Positions 1 through 64,000 of a stretch of 64,000 bases of DNA are shown here, one piece after another. The notes under the pieces were generated by a model. That model had not been told where the DNA came from, searched no databases, and saw nothing but the letters and a program-made list of their open reading frames with translations. The position numbers and the translations under genes were made by a program. This DNA comes from Bacteroidales bacterium (GTDB lineage Bacteria > Bacteroidota > Bacteroidia > Bacteroidales > UBA932). Where the stretch lies: assembly GCA_024401925.1 (NCBI GenBank), contig JAKSKD010000004.1, positions 24,711 to 88,710 of the forward strand. The letters run 5' to 3'. The stretch's first letter is position 1. Each line of letters begins with the position of its first letter.

Positions 1-1106
1 ACCTCTACCGCGTACTCGGAGGACTCGGTGTCGGTACAGCATCCGCCATCTGCCCTATGTATATCGCAGAAATTGCACCTGCTGAGCGTCGTGGAGCCCT
101 TGTTTCCTGGAACCAGTTCGCCATCATATTCGGCCAGCTGGTAGTTTACTTCGTCAACCTCGTCATCCTCGGAGACCACATCGCTCCTAAAATGGAGGCT
201 CTTGCCGAAGGTATCAATGAAATCGTGAACGGAGCGGCCCTCGCTGCTGACGGCAACTGGAGTATCACAACAGGATGGAGGCTTATGTTCGGAAGCGAAT
301 GTGTTCCGGCAGCCCTCTTTACAATCCTCATCCTCCTTGTTCCTGAGACACCGCGCTATCTCGCGATGACAGGCAAGGGAGACAAGGCCCTCAAGGTCCT
401 CACAAAAATCAACGGAGAGAGCAAGGCACAGCAGATTCTCTCAGATATCAAGAACACCGTAACAGAGAAGAAAGAGAAACTCCTCACCTATGGAGGCCTC
501 GTTATCTTCATCGGAATCATGCTCAGCGTATTCCAGCAGATTGTGGGAATCAACGCCGTTCTCTATTATGCACCGAGAATATTCGAATCCCTCGGAATGG
601 GCGACCCTATGTTCCAGACAGTGCTTATGGGTGTTGTGAACATCAGCTTCACTCTTGTAGCGATATTCACCGTAGAGAAACTCGGAAGACGTCCTCTCCT
701 CATCACCGGCTCGCTGGGAATGGCAGTAGGTGCACTTGGAGTCGCACTTGCAGACATTGTTCCAGGACTTCCGGGAATAATCGGAGTCATCAGCGTAATG
801 ATCTACAGCGCATCATTTATGTTCAGCTGGGGTCCTATCTGCTGGGTTCTTATTTCTGAAATCTTCCCTAACACGATACGTGGAGGTGCAGTTGCAATAG
901 CAGTCGCATTCCAGTGGATATCCAACTTCGCCGTTTCAGCAAGCTTCGTCCCTATGTACACTTGGAGTCCGGGCTTCACCTACGGACTTTACTGCGTATT
1001 CTGCATAATCGCAGCCGTATTCGTATGGAAACTTGTCCCTGAGACCAAGGGCAAGACACTTGAGGATATGACGGCTCTGTGGAAAGAAAGAGGCAGAAAG
1101 AACTAA
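1..1106 (+). CDS. Sugar porter family MFS transporter (XylE-like), 5' end outside window
   Basis: Inner-membrane sugar:H+ symporter of the major facilitator superfamily. The reading frame is open from base 3, upstream of the first ATG at 57, so the gene starts outside the window and the N-terminal helices are missing. Visible family motifs are PMYIAEIAPAERRG after helix 4, PETPRYL in the central loop, QQIVGINAVLYYAP in helix 7, EKLGRRPLL between helices 8 and 9, and PETKGKTLEDM at the C-terminus. The long polar insert after helix 5 (about 40 residues) resembles Bacteroides xylose/hexose porters. Substrate cannot be read from sequence; D-xylose is a guess from similarity. It converges on the next gene with a 4-base overlap. 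Confidence 0.9.
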   Translation, partial: LYRVLGGLGVGTASAICPMYIAEIAPAERRGALVSWNQFAIIFGQLVVYFVNLVILGDHIAPKMEALAEGINEIVNGAALAADGNWSITTGWRLMFGSECVPAALFTILILLVPETPRYLAMTGKGDKALKVLTKINGESKAQQILSDIKNTVTEKKEKLLTYGGLVIFIGIMLSVFQQIVGINAVLYYAPRIFESLGMGDPMFQTVLMGVVNISFTLVAIFTVEKLGRRPLLITGSLGMAVGALGVALADIVPGLPGIIGVISVMIYSASFMFSWGPICWVLISEIFPNTIRGGAVAIAVAFQWISNFAVSASFVPMYTWSPGFTYGLYCVFCIIAAVFVWKLVPETKGKTLEDMTALWKERGRKN

Positions 1107-44346: not shown

Positions 44347-46182
44347 ATGAAACTGTTCAAGCTAATCGCCTGCTCTTTTGCAGCAGTCCTGATGTTATGC
44401 GGATGCGCGGAGAAAGATGAAGAGTTCAAGCAATCACTGGATGTGAAAGTGCTTTCAGGGGAGAAGGCTTATGTAGCCGTAGGAAGTGACTATGCCAGCA
44501 TACAGTTCAAGGTCACTCCGGCCAATGTTCTGAGTTTTGATGGCGCCGAGCTGTTCTTGGTGGATGCCAAAGGGCAGATATCGGAAGACTGTGTCATCGA
44601 AGGAATGCGGAGTGAAGCCGATGGAATCTGGGATGCGGATGTAAAGTTCTGTTCCAGCAGCATATCTTCATCGGAATTTATGCTCGAACTGAAATACAAA
44701 GACACTTTCGTCAAATCCAGACAGGTCGTGACGATGCAGAAAGTGGTGTTGAACATCACAAGCCTCGGATCGAAGGGCAGCGAAGCTGAATTCGATGAAG
44801 CGAAATCATCGTTCACTCTGACCCTTCCGGCAGTCACCGACTTCAGTTCGATTGTTCTGGATTTCAAGACCACGGCGGAGACCGTGATGGTCGGAAACAC
44901 CGTCCTCGAAAGCGGGAAGACAGCGGTCGACCTCAGCAAGCCGTTGACAATCATTGCAAAATCGGGCGATTACTCCAAAGAATACTCGTTGACAGCCAGA
45001 AACACAGGTCTTCCGATAGTCAGGATCCAGACTCCTGGCGGAAGGGCCATAACCAGCAAGGAGATCTGGTTGGAGGGTTCCAGCATGCGCATCGAACAGC
45101 CTGACGGCACAGTGGATTACGAAGGCCCTATGAGCATACGCGGCCGTGGAAATTCCACCTGGGGATACCCGAAGAAGCCATACGCCATCAAACTTGACAA
45201 GAAGTCCAAGATCCTGGGGATGCCGAAGCACAAGCGCTGGGTGCTCCTGGCTAACTGGAAGGACCGCACCCTTATAAGAAACGCCGCGGCGTTCTGGGTA
45301 TCATCGCACACAGGAATGCCTTATACTGTCAGAGGAGAGTTCGTGGAAGTGGAACTCAACGGAGAGCATCAGGGAAACTATTATCTCTGCGAACAGATAA
45401 AGATAGACGAGAACAGGGTGAACATCACAGAGATGGACCCGATGGAGACAGACCCTGAAAAAATCACAGGAGGCTACCTGATGGAAGTGGACACATACTA
45501 TGACGAAGTCAACAAGTTCAAGTCCCCGCGCTTCAGTTTGCCATACATGTTCAACACTCCTGATGAAGAAAGCCTTTCAAAGGAAGCGTTCAACTATATG
45601 AAGAACTATGTTTCCGAACTTGAGGACATACTCAAGGACGAGGACAGAGTGAAGAACCACGAATATGAGGCATATCTCGACGTCGATTCAGCAATAGACT
45701 ATATGTTCATCCTGGAGCTCTGTGACAACCATGACTTTTACAACGAGTGGCACAATGGGACACACAGCTGCTACATGTACAAGGACAGAGGGGGCAAGCT
45801 GTGCTACGGACCGGTCTGGGACTTCGACTACAGAACTTTCATTCCTCTGGACGAAATAAGCCTCAGGATACAGTCCAAGTGGATAGGAGCCACAAGAACC
45901 CTTTACTACCCTGCCCTGTACAAGGACCCTCAGTTCTGTCAGAGGATGCTTGAACGCTGGGACAGCCAGAAAGAAGCGCTCCGCCAGCTGCCTGCCTTCA
46001 TCGATGAAACTGCAGACAGAATCAGACTGTCAGAAGCGGCAAACCACAAGCTCTGGCCGATAGAAGACTGGTGGGAGAACGGTGATGAAACCATGGAATT
46101 CCAGCAGGCTGTCGACAGGATGAAGAGGGGCTATACCGAAAAGCTCAACTGGATGGACTCTCACCTTAAAGAACTGAAATAA
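44347..46182 (+). CDS. CotH-like kinase-fold lipoprotein
   Basis: 611 residues with a lipoprotein signal (FAAVLMLCGCAEKD). Two Ig-like/DUF-type beta domains (about 25-215) precede the CotH domain (about 220-580): GPMSIRGRGNSTWGYPKKPY, ILGMPKHKRWVLLANWKDRT, IRNAAAFWVS and GPVWDFDYRTF. Spore CotH is a protein kinase of atypical fold. Surface lipoprotein versions are frequent in gut Bacteroidales, sometimes beside glycan loci, with unknown substrates. The gene is isolated between the barrel fragment and an IS remnant and ends at a good terminator. Confidence 0.88.
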   Translation: MKLFKLIACSFAAVLMLCGCAEKDEEFKQSLDVKVLSGEKAYVAVGSDYASIQFKVTPANVLSFDGAELFLVDAKGQISEDCVIEGMRSEADGIWDADVKFCSSSISSSEFMLELKYKDTFVKSRQVVTMQKVVLNITSLGSKGSEAEFDEAKSSFTLTLPAVTDFSSIVLDFKTTAETVMVGNTVLESGKTAVDLSKPLTIIAKSGDYSKEYSLTARNTGLPIVRIQTPGGRAITSKEIWLEGSSMRIEQPDGTVDYEGPMSIRGRGNSTWGYPKKPYAIKLDKKSKILGMPKHKRWVLLANWKDRTLIRNAAAFWVSSHTGMPYTVRGEFVEVELNGEHQGNYYLCEQIKIDENRVNITEMDPMETDPEKITGGYLMEVDTYYDEVNKFKSPRFSLPYMFNTPDEESLSKEAFNYMKNYVSELEDILKDEDRVKNHEYEAYLDVDSAIDYMFILELCDNHDFYNEWHNGTHSCYMYKDRGGKLCYGPVWDFDYRTFIPLDEISLRIQSKWIGATRTLYYPALYKDPQFCQRMLERWDSQKEALRQLPAFIDETADRIRLSEAANHKLWPIEDWWENGDETMEFQQAVDRMKRGYTEKLNWMDSHLKELK

Positions 46183-46191
46183 AAAATGGGG

Positions 46192-46235
46192 GTGAAAAAA
46201 AAGTCCAATAGGACTTAGAGGTCACTCTCTTTTTT
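46192..46235 (+). terminator. Intrinsic terminator downstream of the CotH-like gene
   Basis: AAGTCC / GGACTT stem with AATA loop (46201-46216), extended by GTGA / TCAC (46192-46195 with 46222-46225), then a run of T (46231-46238). It lies 10 bases past the stop codon. Confidence 0.7.
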
Positions 46236-46241
46236 TTATTC

Positions 46242-46385
46242 TGCCTCCGAGCGTCGGCTGCTCTCCTCCGGAGACCTTCCGCTTCGCTCCATCCCTCCCA
46301 CTGCGCTACGCTTGTGGGTCCCTCCCTCTAACGTGCCCGAGGGTGGGCACGGGTCCCGGAGGAGACAGCCGAACGCATCAGCGGC
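46242..46385 (-). repeat. Multi-hairpin structured repeat, copy 1 (minus orientation)
   Basis: Outer arms of about 29 bases pair imperfectly (46242-46271 with 46356-46385; core GGCTGCTCTCCTCCGG against CCGGAGGAGACAGCC). Read on the minus strand the interior shows hairpin 1 CGTGCCC-ACCCTC-GGGCACG (46332-46351), linker with GGGAGGG, hairpin 2 CCCAC...GTGGG (46297-46318) and linker AGGGATGGA. A weak third element GCGAAGC follows. The same order, loop and linker sequences recur in copy 2 at 47102 with different stems. No protein is encoded. It has the look of a small mobile or RNA-structured repeat. Confidence 0.75.
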
Positions 46386-46398
46386 AACTCTAAAATAA

Positions 46399-46435
46399 AA
46401 TAGCTATTCTTTTGGCAATCAAAGGAATAGCTATT
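46399..46435. repeat. Perfect 11-bp inverted repeat upstream of the transposase remnant
   Basis: AATAGCTATTC (46399-46409) is repeated in inverse at 46425-46435 with 15 bases between. The internal TTGGCAATCAAAGGAATA is echoed at 46467-46484 (TTGCAATCAAAAGAAATA). It may be the left end or the control hairpin of the IS remnant that follows. Confidence 0.5.
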
Positions 46436-46500
46436 GCTTTTGTGATAGAAAATTACTATCTTGTAGTTGCAATCAAAAGAAATATAATCTCTATCAAGCA

Positions 46501-47114
46501 ATGGCAATCTGCTGCTTCCTCCTTGTCTTGGCGATTATCTTCCCGGAAATCACCCAGCAAGAGTCGTAAGTGCAATAATCGACCGCCTCGACATCAGCGA
46601 AATCGAATCCGGCTATGTCGGTGGCGGCACCAGCAGCTACAATCCCAGGATGCTTCTCAAGGTCATCGTGTACGCATATCTGAGCAATGTGTACTCAGGG
46701 CGTCAGATGGAGAAGCTGCTTGTGGAAAACACAGCCTACATGTGGCTCAGTGGCATGCAGAGACCAGACTTCGGGACTATCAATATCTTCCGCAGCAAGT
46801 GTCCGATGCGAGGAAAATGCTACAAAGGCAAGAGCGACAGGCGTGAGATAGAGGTCAATCATCAGGCGAATGCCTTCAAGAAGGAGGTTAAGGAACTTCT
46901 TTGGAGCGAGAAAGGGCTGAAACACAGGAGTAACAGGCCGATAGAGCCTGAGGCTGTCTTTGGTGACATAAAGTTCAACCATGGCTTCAAGCGCTTCAAA
47001 CTGAAATCGAACAGAAAAGTCAAGGTGGAGTTCGGCCTTGTAGCTACGGCTCACAATCTGAGGAAATATATAGTTGCAAAACAGGCGTCAGCGAAGCAAA
47101 TGCAGGTGGCATAG
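46501..47114 (+). pseudogene. Degenerate IS1182-family transposase with internal deletion
   Basis: The frame encodes LLPPCLGDYLPGNHPARVVS and DRLDISEIESGYVGGGTSSY, then MLLKVIVYAYLSNVYSGRQM and GMQRPDFGTINIFRSK: the N-terminal DUF772 domain of IS1182/IS5-like transposases. Directly after INIFRSK it jumps to CPMRGKCYKGK, the cysteine motif and C-terminal end (IEPEAVFGDIKFNHGFKRF, VATAHNLRKYI). About 250 residues including most of the DDE core are missing. The only plausible start, ATGGCAATC at 46501, is out of frame with the rest, so a second small deletion disabled the 5' end. It cannot encode an active enzyme. Confidence 0.85.
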
Positions 47115-47241
47115 ACCATCTGAAGGCCTGTCCACCCCCGGACAGGTATAGGGGGAGGGGCCCAAGTGGAACGAAGTGAAACTTGGGAGGGGCCGAGCGC
47201 ACGAAAGTGCGCGAGTCCTGAAGATGGTCTATGCCACCTGC
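47102..47241 (+). repeat. Multi-hairpin structured repeat, copy 2 (plus orientation)
   Basis: Perfect 20-bp outer arms GCAGGTGGCATAGACCATCT (47102-47121) and its complement (47222-47241) enclose 100 bases. Hairpin 1: CCTGTCC-ACCCCC-GGACAGG (47127-47146). Linker with GGGGGAGGGG. Hairpin 2: CCCAAGT-13 bases-ACTTGGG (47161-47187), loop containing ACGAAGTG. Linker AGGGGCCGA. Hairpin 3: GCGCAC-GAAA-GTGCGC (47197-47212). The left arm overlaps the last codons of the transposase remnant. Copy 1 at 46242 has the same architecture in the opposite orientation. Confidence 0.8.
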
Positions 47242-47275
47242 TGCGAAGCTGGTGACACCTCTATACACAAAGAAA

Positions 47276-47310
47276 CCGGCCAAAAATCACTTTTTGGTCG
47301 GCCTCCTCCT
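47276..47310. terminator. Terminator-like hairpin between the structured repeat and the epimerase fragment
   Basis: CCGGCCAAAAA / TTTTTGGTCGG, 11 pairs including one G-T, TCAC loop (47276-47301), followed on the plus strand by a C/T-rich run. It could stop transcripts from either side or be the outer end of the IS remnant. Confidence 0.5.
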
Positions 47311-47809: not shown

Positions 47810-50800
47810 ATGAAAAGTAAATTATTTACTTCTCTAGTGGCTTTATTGCTCTTGGGAGGGGCAAGTGTTGCCTTTGCCCAGAACAAGGTTACCGGCGTTG
47901 TGTCGGATAATCTCGGACCGGCCGTTGGAGTAAGTGTGATTGAACAGGGTACCAGCAATGGTACAGTTACCGACTTGGATGGACATTTCGAGCTCACCGT
48001 AAAGGAAGGCGCGAATCTTCTTATCTCCTCTGTCGGTTACAGGGATCAGGTTATTGAAGTCGGCGATCAGCGTAACTTCAATATCGTGATCGAAGAAGAC
48101 ACGGAACTTCTCGAAGAAGTTGTCGTAGTCGGCTATGGTACACAGAAGAAGAAACTCGTGACCGGATCCACAATTCAGGTCAAGGGCGAAGAGCTGCAGA
48201 AGCAGAATTCTGTAAGTGCTCTCGGCGCTATGCAGTCTTCTACTCCTGGTATGCAGATTATCTCTCAGTCAGGACAGCCTGGCGAAGGGTACAAAGTAAC
48301 CATCCGTGGTATGGGTACCACAGGTTCATTTGCTCCTCTCTATGTAATTGACGGTGTAGCCGGAGGCGACATCAATGCACTTAACCCTTCCGACATCGAA
48401 TCCATCGACGTCCTCAAGGATGCTGCATCCTGCGCCATCTACGGTGCCCGTGGTGCCAACGGTGTTATCCTCGTTACCACCAAGCAGGGAAAGAGTGGCA
48501 AATTCACTGTTACCTATGACGGATTCTATGGTGTACAGAACGTTGCCAGAATGCCTGAGCTCCTCAATGCCCAGCAGTATATGGACATTCAGGATCAGGT
48601 TGAGTTCAATATGGGACGCAGTCCGATCGACTGGGCAGGCATCCTGAATCCTGATCTTTACAACAGCATCAAGAATGGATCATTCACCGGGACCAACTGG
48701 CTCGATGCAATCCGCAACGAGAATGCTCCTATCACCAACCACGCAGTGAATATCGTAGGCGGAACCGATATTTCAAAATTCTCTCTTGGTGTTTCATACA
48801 CCGGACAGGAAGGTATCTTCGGAAAGCCGGTAGCATCAAATTACAAGCGTGTTACCGTTCGTCTCAACAGTGAGCACGTACTCTGGCGCAAGAACGATCT
48901 TGATATCATCACCCTTGGTGAGAATATGACCTATTCTACAAACGGGAAAAGCGGAATCGGTATCGGTAACCACTATTGGAACGACGTCTATTCAATGCTT
49001 TCAGCAAGTCCGCTCGTCCCTCTCCACGACCCTAGCGGCCAGAGCGAAAGCGGATATACCGAATACGACTGGTTGAGCCAGAGCGGAATTTGGCAGAAAG
49101 ATGCATACACAAGCAACCCTGTTGCCAATATGTACTACAGTTCCCGCGGAAATAACGAAAACCACGGCTACTCACTCAATCTTTCAGCGAACTTGAAGAT
49201 ACAGCCTATCAAGAACCTCGTAATTAAGAGTCAGTTCAACTACGGTATGAGTGCCAACACCTACCGCCAGTACCAGATGATCTACAAGCTCACCAACTAT
49301 GCTTTCTCTGACACGGATAACGTTTCACAGAGCGCAAGCGCAGGCTGGAACTGGTCTTGGGAAAATACTGTCAATTACAAGTTCGATGTAGCAAGAGACC
49401 ATCATTTTGATGTACTTCTCGGTAACACCCTCCAGCACAGCGGCTTCGGCGAGAACGTCGGTTCAGCCAACAACACAGGTCTCTGGCCTAACGACTGGGC
49501 TCACGCTTATGTAAGCAATATGTCAGGCGATCCTTCCACAACTGACGCAACAGGTTCAACCTGGGGAGACAGCGGTCTTGCTTCATTCTTCGGAAGAATC
49601 AACTATGACTACAAAGAAAGATATATGGTTTCACTCATCCTCCGTCGTGACGGTTCATCCAACTTCATGAAGGGCAAGCGTTGGGGTACATTCCCTTCAG
49701 TTTCCGCTGGTTGGGTGCTCACAAATGAGGACTGGTTCCACTCAAACTTCCTCGATTTCTTCAAACTTCGCGGGAGCTGGGGTCAGAACGGTAACTGCAA
49801 TGTATCAAACTTCCAATATCTCTCAACAGTCTCTGTAGGTGCTGCTGACGGCGGATACTCCTTCTATACAGGCCCTACCTCCACCACATCAGGTACAGGT
49901 TCTTACGCAGACAAGCTTGCAAATCCAGACATCACTTGGGAAACATCCCAGCAGCTTGACCTCGGTTTCGACGCACGTATGTTCCGCAACCGCTTGAACG
50001 TAGTATTCGACTGGTATCAGAAAGACACCAAGGACTGGCTCGTAAATGCACCTGTTCTCGGTCACTACGGACTCAACGCACCTTATATCAATGGTGGTGA
50101 CGTACGCAACAGCGGTGTCGAGCTCGCGTTCAACTGGAGCGACGCAATCAGCAAGGATTTCTCTTACAGTATCGGAATCAACGGCGCATACAACAAGAAC
50201 ACCGTTACCCGTATTGCCAATGATGAGGGAATCATCCACGGCCAAACCAACGTCGTTCAGGGTATTGCAGAACTTTACAGGGCTCAGGTAGGCTACCCTA
50301 TCGGTTACTTCTGGACCTACGCTACTGACGGAGTATTCCAGAATCAGGCGGAAATTGACCAGTGGGTGGCAGCAGGCAAGCCTGTAATGCGCGCCGAAGG
50401 AGCAATTCCTGGAGATCTCAAATTCGTTGACGTCAACGGAGACGGACAACTCACTGCCGAAGACAAGACTATGACAGGTGACCCTAACCCGGATTTCACC
50501 GCAGGTCTCAACTTCTCTATCTACTTCAAGGGATTTGACCTTGCAGTCAGCGGCTACGGCCAGTTCGGCCAGCAGGTGTTCCGCGCATACCGTCGTTATT
50601 CAGACAGCCAGTGGAACAACTATACCACAGAGGTTTACAACTACTGGCACGGTGAGGGCACATCAAACAAGTATCCTCGTCTCACAGCAGGTACTGACAT
50701 CAACTTCATGAACAACTCTGATATCTTCATCGAGGATGCAGACTTCTTCAGAATCCAGAACATTACTCTCGGATACGACTTCAAGCGTGTTTGGAAGAGT

Positions 50801-50983
50801 GCTCCGTTCGAGCAGTGCCGTCTTTATGTTCAGACCCAGAATCCTTTCGTATTCACCAAGTTCATGGGTCTCGATCCTGAAGTCGGTTCAGACGCGGGAT
50901 TCGACTCTTGGACCAAGGGACTTGACCTTGGTTACTATCCTCAGGCAAGATCTATTCTTGTCGGCCTTAACCTTAAATTTTAA
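47810..50983 (+). CDS. SusC/RagA-type TonB-linked outer-membrane transporter
   Basis: 1057 residues. Signal peptide (LVALLLLGGASVAFAQ), carboxypeptidase-regulatory-like domain (about 23-100; KVTGVVSDNLGPAVGVSV), the TonB-box-like ELLEEVVVVGYGTQKKK, plug (about 120-230; VTIRGMGTTGSFAPLYVIDGV, VLKDAASCAIYGARGANGVI) and a 22-strand barrel ending in LVGLNLKF with a terminal Phe. It imports oligosaccharides bound by the SusD partner encoded next. The substrate may be beta-glucan or glucomannan, judged only from GH9/GH130 nearby. Confidence 0.96.
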   Translation: MKSKLFTSLVALLLLGGASVAFAQNKVTGVVSDNLGPAVGVSVIEQGTSNGTVTDLDGHFELTVKEGANLLISSVGYRDQVIEVGDQRNFNIVIEEDTELLEEVVVVGYGTQKKKLVTGSTIQVKGEELQKQNSVSALGAMQSSTPGMQIISQSGQPGEGYKVTIRGMGTTGSFAPLYVIDGVAGGDINALNPSDIESIDVLKDAASCAIYGARGANGVILVTTKQGKSGKFTVTYDGFYGVQNVARMPELLNAQQYMDIQDQVEFNMGRSPIDWAGILNPDLYNSIKNGSFTGTNWLDAIRNENAPITNHAVNIVGGTDISKFSLGVSYTGQEGIFGKPVASNYKRVTVRLNSEHVLWRKNDLDIITLGENMTYSTNGKSGIGIGNHYWNDVYSMLSASPLVPLHDPSGQSESGYTEYDWLSQSGIWQKDAYTSNPVANMYYSSRGNNENHGYSLNLSANLKIQPIKNLVIKSQFNYGMSANTYRQYQMIYKLTNYAFSDTDNVSQSASAGWNWSWENTVNYKFDVARDHHFDVLLGNTLQHSGFGENVGSANNTGLWPNDWAHAYVSNMSGDPSTTDATGSTWGDSGLASFFGRINYDYKERYMVSLILRRDGSSNFMKGKRWGTFPSVSAGWVLTNEDWFHSNFLDFFKLRGSWGQNGNCNVSNFQYLSTVSVGAADGGYSFYTGPTSTTSGTGSYADKLANPDITWETSQQLDLGFDARMFRNRLNVVFDWYQKDTKDWLVNAPVLGHYGLNAPYINGGDVRNSGVELAFNWSDAISKDFSYSIGINGAYNKNTVTRIANDEGIIHGQTNVVQGIAELYRAQVGYPIGYFWTYATDGVFQNQAEIDQWVAAGKPVMRAEGAIPGDLKFVDVNGDGQLTAEDKTMTGDPNPDFTAGLNFSIYFKGFDLAVSGYGQFGQQVFRAYRRYSDSQWNNYTTEVYNYWHGEGTSNKYPRLTAGTDINFMNNSDIFIEDADFFRIQNITLGYDFKRVWKSAPFEQCRLYVQTQNPFVFTKFMGLDPEVGSDAGFDSWTKGLDLGYYPQARSILVGLNLKF

Positions 50984-63940: not shown

Positions 63941-64000
63941 TGAGATATGGTGTAATGGTAGCACTACAGATTTTGGTTCTGCCAGTTTGGGTTCGAGTCC
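63941..64000 (+). tRNA. tRNA-Gln (anticodon TTG), 3' end outside window
   Basis: Acceptor strand TGAGATA, D arm GTGTAATGGTAGCAC, anticodon loop TTTTGGT with anticodon TTG, and T-arm start GGGTTCGAGTCC are visible. The T-stem 3' side and acceptor 3' strand lie beyond base 64000. Confidence 0.9.

Follow-up and report, generated by a model that had tools for sequence, protein, structure and literature searches.

The pair of repeats lying in a 64,000-nt stretch of a Bacteroidales genome (Bacteroidales bacterium, GCA_024401925.1, contig JAKSKD010000004.1, positions 24,711-88,710; hereafter the window) belongs to a family that, in our judgment, probably consists of gene-less mobile palindromes of one Bacteroidales lineage, translated where they lie in genes, recognised by shape, and having a co-occurring Y1 protein as their likeliest mover. 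A palindromic repeat of about 150 bp occurs at many unrelated sites; its copies show a covarying fold with a pseudoknot, are dispersed, are present or absent as whole palindromes, pass through genes in frame, have the core inverted at some shared sites, and occur as pairs at the flanks of an insertion sequence (IS). Most members measure ~110-200 bp and comprise a core of ~65-100 nt (a pseudoknotted hairpin 1, a hairpin 2 and a hairpin 3) within a helix of ~25-40 bp, the sequence of which is nearly free. The pseudoknot, the in-frame insertions and the core inversions are findings beyond the initial annotation of the window. A search of an open-licence literature library yielded no description of this repeat family, although absence there is not proof.

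Both window copies were placed correctly by that annotation with respect to coordinates, strands and parts (Table 1), and both fold: none of 200 dinucleotide shuffles of each copy folded as well, and a covariance model derived from 59 copies, all belonging to other genomes, retrieved copy 1 at E 1.1e-10 and copy 2 at E 1.8e-5, with the third-ranked match within the window at E 0.27. The 5' arm of copy 2 overlaps the last codons and the stop of an IS1182-like transposase. The loop ACCCYC and the G-rich linker described earlier are present, but they are not an unpaired loop and linker, as the last five loop bases pair with GRGGG to give an H-type pseudoknot with a first loop of one base (CCCTC/GAGGG in copy 1, CCCCC/GGGGG in copy 2).

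Table 1. Features of the window (positions 1 to 64,000) and, in the last six lines, elements within host proteins (protein numbering).
Feature	Position	Strand	Basis or remark
CotH-domain protein, neighbour of the IS	44347-46182		
Left-end region of IS1182-like element, hairpin AAAGTCCAATAGGACTT	46186..46241		by-eye likeness to left ends of G000:C36 and G292:C41; exact boundary inferred
Copy 1, entire palindromic element (core and outer arms)	46242..46385	-	folding z -5.96; model match 46255-46371, 55.3 bits
Copy 1 hairpin 3 (GCGAAGC)	46281..46287	-	sequence reading
Copy 1 hairpin 2 (CCCAC...GTGGG)	46297..46318	-	helix 4 of covariation analysis
Copy 1 pseudoknot 3' strand, GAGGG	46324..46328	-	pairing
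Copy 1 pseudoknot 5' strand, loop bases CCCTC	46339..46343	-	pairing intact in 105/105 rows
Copy 1 hairpin 1, 5' strand CGTGCCC	46345..46351	-	partner GGGCACG at 46332-46338
AT-rich hairpin between copy 1 and transposase start	46399..46435		inverted repeat; nearly same sequence in C36
Internally deleted IS1182-like transposase	46501..47114	+	Pfam DUF772, DDE_Tnp_1_6; start by eye against C36
Longest open part of the remnant transposase	46650-47114		
Copy 2, entire palindromic element	47102..47241	+	folding z -8.14; model match 47110-47233, 32.8 bits
Copy 2 loop ACCCCC	47134..47139	+	bases 2-6 are the pseudoknot 5' strand
Copy 2 pseudoknot 3' strand, GGGGG	47151..47155	+	pairing
Copy 2 hairpin 2 (CCCAAGT...ACTTGGG)	47161..47187	+	sequence reading
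Copy 2 hairpin 3 (GCGCAC GAAA GTGCGC)	47197..47212	+	sequence reading
Right-end region of IS, hairpin GGCCAAAAATCACTTTTTGGTCGGCC	47242..47310		similar hairpin at C36 right end, by eye; exact boundary inferred
TonB-dependent receptor plug protein with carboxypeptidase-regulatory-like domain, neighbour of the IS	47810-50983		
tRNA gene running past the window end	63941-64000		Rfam RF00005
Element in RsmH	119-155		family match 31-373
Element in RNase R	363-400		RNB match 228-604
Element in YgiQ	226-261		family match 22-353
Element in MtaB	138-174		family match 34-464
Element in RibF	420-457		family match 277-604
Element in PurL (own genome)	500-537		family match 1-806

Conservation of the fold was examined in an alignment of 59 copies, drawn from 225 distinct copies, of which filtering by arm score and length kept 167 and removal of similar ones left 102; 88 of these 102 were no longer than 122 nt, and the 59 aligned were mostly the shorter among the 88. 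The alignment comprises 41 pairs with 95.3% of cells paired, a figure inflated for helix 1 (the arm filter selects paired arms), while the double changes are unaffected by that filter: changes on both sides occur in 28 of the 41 pairs, so that stem changes preserve pairing as had been proposed, and 557 double-change cells were observed against a shuffled mean of 151.8, with none of 500 shuffles reaching the observed number. When the partner strand was slid by 1-3 columns, pairing fell from 95.3% to 39-48%. A filter-independent comparison of arm scores gave a median in the mid-twenties for 144 copies, as opposed to a mean of 8.8 and a maximum of 19 at random places in the same loci. Since all 20 pairs of the outer helix show double changes somewhere in the alignment, this helix is kept mainly as a helix and not as a sequence; the outer arms of the window copies, called quite different from each other at the outset, do differ, but such difference is the rule across the family in the 59-copy alignment.

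The pseudoknot, which is absent from the model, was fully paired in 105/105 match rows from 99 loci, a few of these rows being one place fetched twice and the model having been built on copies with the commonest version. Six base sets were found (CCCTC/GAGGG in 87 rows, CCCCC/GGGGG in 8, CCCGT/ACGGG in 6, CCCGC/GCGGG in 2, CCCAT/ATGGG and GCCGC/GCGGC in 1 each), and each of the 18 rows deviating from the commonest version had both strands altered. Covariation and pseudoknot pairing together support the earlier proposal of selection on a folded single strand. G.T pairs in the arms outnumber A.C mismatches (37 vs. 21, p 0.048; 145 vs. 91 on a redundant set, for which 33 of the 225 distinct copies did not attain the arm score); this excess weakly favours selection on the core strand. 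Because G.T pairs stand only modestly above A.C mismatches, template switching alone could keep the arms perfect and would possibly suffice.

The search for further copies disclosed a family dispersed among rumen and gut Bacteroidales; the window's own genome alone gave 12 covariance-model matches (E<=0.01). An exact pattern (loop plus G-strand) occurs in 60 of the 299 genomes of the window's family and in 7 of its 25 genera, with up to 28 copies per genome, and the reversed-pattern control gave 0 in each of the 299; these counts are lower bounds, given the 12 copies that the model finds in the own genome. In that genome, blastn with copy 2 returned, apart from the query and its own arms, just two short matches attributable to chance, and a mismatch-tolerant pattern found copy 2 only; the exact pattern finds both window copies. 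Beyond the family, 147 other genomes of the phylum (a sample of 148 including the own genome) gave no covariance-model match at E<=1e-4, under stricter filters that return 7 matches in the own genome. Contigs of named genomes contain at least 119 stretches with the pattern. Among the 80 matches listed, titles read Bacteroidales, Bacteroidia, Bacteroidaceae or Candidatus Coprenecus and sources, where titled, are mostly ruminant or horse samples; Coprenecus is placed by NCBI in Rikenellaceae. The pattern was not found in viral contigs, phages or plasmids.

A dead transposase had been noted between the window copies, and this was borne out: it is IS1182-like (DUF772 and DDE_Tnp_1_6) and internally deleted. 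An intact relative in the own genome (G000:C36:3585-5207, L309; 541 aa) has folded motifs at both flanks, namely an upstream region with outer arms near-identical to those of copy 1 around a different core of the same fold (pseudoknot GCCGC/GCGGC by eye; 27.3 bits under the model), and a pseudoknot motif at the position of copy 2. Since C36 thus shares copy 1's position and arms as well as the motif at copy 2's position, the window pair belongs to an IS1182-like insertion sequence, in which its position would be subterminal. Another such IS, G292:C41, with a transposase 59% identical, has an outward-pointing pseudoknot pair too, making three IS1182-like copies with outward-pointing pseudoknot copies at both flanks; the motif descriptor gave 12 matches in 1.51 Mb strand length of shuffled sequence. 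No pseudoknot motif was seen in a remnant from G248 or in pieces from two non-carriers. That the window pair represents an IS target hairpin, as had been offered, is not supported, the pair being part of the IS and four empty sites (see below) having no palindrome, with the coreless palindrome of L184 to the contrary.

The three pair-bearing copies also raise the possibility that the dispersed repeats are MITEs of this element, moved by its DDE transposase, and it fits this reading that IS1272, of the IS1182 family, is described as targeting and replacing inverted repeats, the family including members with palindromic targets (PMC5678879). We nevertheless consider it unlikely. The likeness to IS1182/IS1272 lies in the window pair flanking an IS1182-like transposase, whereas the repeats are inside the IS, the ends of which lie outside them in C36 and G292, and IS terminal sequences were not seen by eye around dispersed copies. 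Moreover, DDE_Tnp_1_6 was detected in just 3/16 carriers and in 2/8 non-carriers (with one of these two matches under the cut-off), so the dispersed family does not seem tied to that IS, and a C36-type transposase was found in 2/16 carriers. The IS1182 transposase as general mover is unsupported, its domain giving no match in 13/16 carriers, all draft genomes.

Copies inside protein-coding genes are a minority, and coding sites are depleted yet common: of 208 distinct copies that have sufficient flank, 50 are strictly coding, with a frame that stays open for 100 codons or more to each side of the copy, as against 376 of 770 positions drawn at random from these loci. Among the 50 coding copies, 28 are sense and 22 antisense. 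Conserved housekeeping genes are among the hosts, which include TrmB, RibF, RsmH, RNase R, PurL, YgiQ and MtaB; gene contexts called by a crude ORF finder were left aside. Each of 62 locus rows examined keeps its frame without a stop, and a core is present in 31, in either orientation. In TrmB, one loop varies from 33 to 279 nt and 32/32 rows (3 loci obtained through the repeat and 29 through homology to the gene) are in frame and stop-free; the strict core motif is present in 7 of these rows, and the remainder hold divergent, different or zero inserts. In eight further genes, 30/30 rows are in frame, 24 with a core in one direction or the other, the latter rows being limited to loci with both flanks found. 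Among the TrmB rows, those of the eight genes and the collected model matches, some stand for a single genome listed under two locus names. Both core orientations are open within one gene in L043/L091 and in L055/L221. The simple reading, judged from DNA alone, is that the inserts would be translated as extra residues, 32 in TrmB of L160 vs. L166 and 47 in RsmH of L112 vs. L093. In the TrmB loop of L174, L180, L167, L177 and L158, we noticed other in-frame inserts with palindromic pieces (three GGACC(T/A)GGTCC palindromes in L174), and there seems to be more than one translated-palindrome family in these genomes.

Sites shared by two or more species were compared; their flanks are 78-93% identical, and each copy sits between matching flanks separated by less than 400 nt. 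At 9/31 of these sites, or in 13/54 when counted as pairs, one species has an inverted core. Flanks are kept at the inverted-core sites L245/L255, L252/L254, and L259 vs. L143 and L268; for L043/L091, which belong to different subfamilies, replacement may be as likely as inversion. The arms of shared copies differ through paired changes and, by eye, mostly stay complementary; selection on the fold mixed with arm-to-arm conversion would explain such changes. Present activity may be low, because the 31 sites are common to species with flanks diverged to 78-93% identity; no transposition event was caught.

The persistence of copies at shared sites, the strong covariation, the pseudoknot and the slight G.T excess over A.C on the core strand would also suit a functional structured RNA or riboregulator, repeated by chance. 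This we regard as improbable, for 1) the copies occur in both orientations in genes and have inverted cores at shared sites; 2) genomes belonging to a single genus contain anything between 0 and 28 of them; 3) Rfam 15 contains no family for the copies, with the window searched at gathering score and four loci to E 1. An unknown non-coding RNA had been among the options first entertained and keeps that small probability, but the two orientations of the coding copies make it less likely that an RNA acts there in a strand-specific way.

Whole palindromes come and go, as seen in genome G256, which lacks them at four sites (L190, L191, L207 and the shared site L011/L012/L217) that are filled in G250, G052, G194 or G206. 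About two thirds of the G256 genome was covered by this search, which located both flanks for 14 rows, 4 of them not flagged empty and 10 flagged empty; of the latter, six (the four sites) were judged, L224 was too diverged, and L202, L212 and L020 lay outside the judged set. In alignments inspected by eye the empty sites have neither arm nor palindrome, hence the gain or loss of the palindrome as a whole; filled L190, L191 and L207 have about ten more bases beyond the arms on each side. Inspection of the four empty/filled sites by eye revealed no target-site duplication.

These empty sites bear on the possibility that the arms lie outside the mobile unit, either because insertion creates them by inverted copying of the flank of the target or because the repeat enters palindromes that are already there. 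The arms are unique in most copies; element-free L166 (TrmB) holds one arm's sequence; and L184, also element-free, contains a perfect 34-bp palindrome lacking a core (GGACAGCCGGATGAATCGATTCATCCGGCTGTCC) at the TrmB position that the element occupies in relatives. The idea that arms are copied from the target, first suggested to us by L166, was withdrawn after flank comparison and the finding of the four empty sites: L166 is more likely a deletion scar, since its flanks are 94-95% identical to those of filled L141/L160 and thereby closer to them than filled L161 is (79-85%). Together with the lack of arm or palindrome at empty L190, L191, L207 and L011/L012/L217, and with outer arms that are common to 8/13 copies of G250, the deletion scar leaves arms outside the mobile unit as a quite improbable reading. 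The eight G250 copies (among L186-L198) share, by eye, a longer unit ending TGTTTGCTTGCG / CAAGCAAACA, one being seen on one side only and one having a changed base; the other five keep the core and have different outermost arms. The shared unit is perhaps a recent burst with defined termini. A self-splicing or ribosome-bypassed insert, to which a stable pseudoknotted fold in the middle of an enzyme domain of conserved genes might point, was rejected as hardly credible, given that both orientations occur and that all 62 rows are in frame and stop-free, a constraint that removal of the insert would not impose.

What moves the repeats is, we surmise tentatively and by association only, a RAYT-like Y1 (HUH) protein. 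The own genome encodes a 311-aa Y1_Tnp protein that has HxH as well as a conserved Tyr and ends in a long C-terminal part (AlphaFold2 model, mean pLDDT 80.5); H60, H62 and Y120 (numbering of the first sequence) are kept in 11/11 aligned Y1 sequences. At E<=1e-10 this protein was found in 39/60 carriers and in 54/239 other genomes. The association is evident in two genera, with repeat and protein both present, repeat only, protein only and neither in 24/4/4/30 genomes of g1 (Fisher 3e-9) and in 15/3/8/14 genomes of g16 (Fisher p 0.004), by tests that ignore phylogeny. At the same threshold, 21/60 carriers have no such protein, including all 14 outside g1 and g16, which span five genera (two that were checked have other Y1 matches), and 54/93 genomes with the protein have no exact-pattern repeat; the Pfam domain Y1_Tnp (PF01797) is present in 12/12 carriers and 6/10 non-carriers. 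A nearby RAYT/Y1 was not borne out beyond this co-occurrence in two genera: no repeat was found flanking Y1 genes, either by a motif scan of 12 loci or by the model, whose best match over 19 loci had E 0.37; the model is weak on some subfamilies, having missed the G292 pair. Nor did a recurrent neighbour gene emerge as mover, with no protein cluster extending over more than 5 loci. Among the three options first put forward for the window pair, a REP/MITE-like element mobilised in trans is the best, in that dispersal and presence/absence agree with it; the Y1 protein that co-occurs with the copies in two genera may be what moves them.

Our proposal for gene-less mobile palindromes can be put as follows: 1) the element would move as single-stranded DNA in folded form, its shape being the main feature recognised, with a RAYT-like Y1 (HUH) protein as the most likely mover; 2) insertions in genes would survive only if their length and frame keep the protein open, and the insert would then be translated as an extra loop; 3) recombination or template switching between the arms, in addition to selection on the fold, would hold the arms complementary and flip the core; 4) the IS of the window would bear two such repeats as subterminal parts. 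We further speculate, with some doubt, that this is a shape-addressed element, in which a pseudoknotted core within a helix of free sequence is moved, and repeatedly flipped in place, by an HUH enzyme or at the replication fork, giving one housekeeping protein a translated insert that is readable either way. To our knowledge, no other pseudoknotted REP-like element has been described.

Several known systems resemble this family in part. The Rickettsia palindromic elements (RPE) are likewise dispersed palindromes of ~150 bp that occupy intergenic sites and also sit in frame inside unrelated genes (PMC10969869, PMC3733652). They belong to another phylum, and the covarying pseudoknotted core, the near-free complementary arms and the inverted cores distinguish the present family, which we liken to RPE by description, not by sequence, and do not file as an RPE member. 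RPEs are also described as losing repeat identity over time (PMC6649704), unlike the arms of shared copies here, which mostly stay complementary. With REP/BIME/REPIN sequences and their RAYT (TnpA-REP, Y1 HUH), the family has in common dispersed gene-less palindromes and, as far as the association in two genera goes, an accompanying Y1 protein of low copy number that has HxH and a conserved Tyr. However, REPs are given as 20-40 bp (PMC3733652) and are by name extragenic, as opposed to members mostly of 110-200 bp that are pseudoknotted and partly intragenic, and the Y1 gene here has no repeat at its flanks and encodes a protein scoring under the NCBIfam REP_Tyr_transpos cut-off. Atypical secondary structures have been reported for subclass 2.6 of Bacteroidetes (PMC6006769). 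In nematomorph mitochondria, perfect inverted repeats reside in translated genes with their arms kept identical, for which conversion or template switching has been discussed (PMC6649704); the likeness is in matched arms within translated genes, whereas the arms there encode conserved host residues and the portion of that account available to us mentions no shared core.

Translated palindromes, described previously in Rickettsia and in nematomorph mitochondria in the accounts cited above, would extend with this family to dozens of Bacteroidales genomes. Copies lie in TrmB, RibF, RsmH, RNase R, PurL and other enzymes, and the fold is conserved enough for molecular study. For annotation, it is relevant that host proteins hold tens of residues without counterpart in close relatives. 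The inverted cores make it testable whether arm identity arises via selection or recombination. If the Y1 protein moves the repeats, the family would provide a natural test of how an HUH enzyme reads the shape of a single strand, including a pseudoknot, and, if the shape-addressed reading is true, these palindromes would be a natural generator of protein loops.
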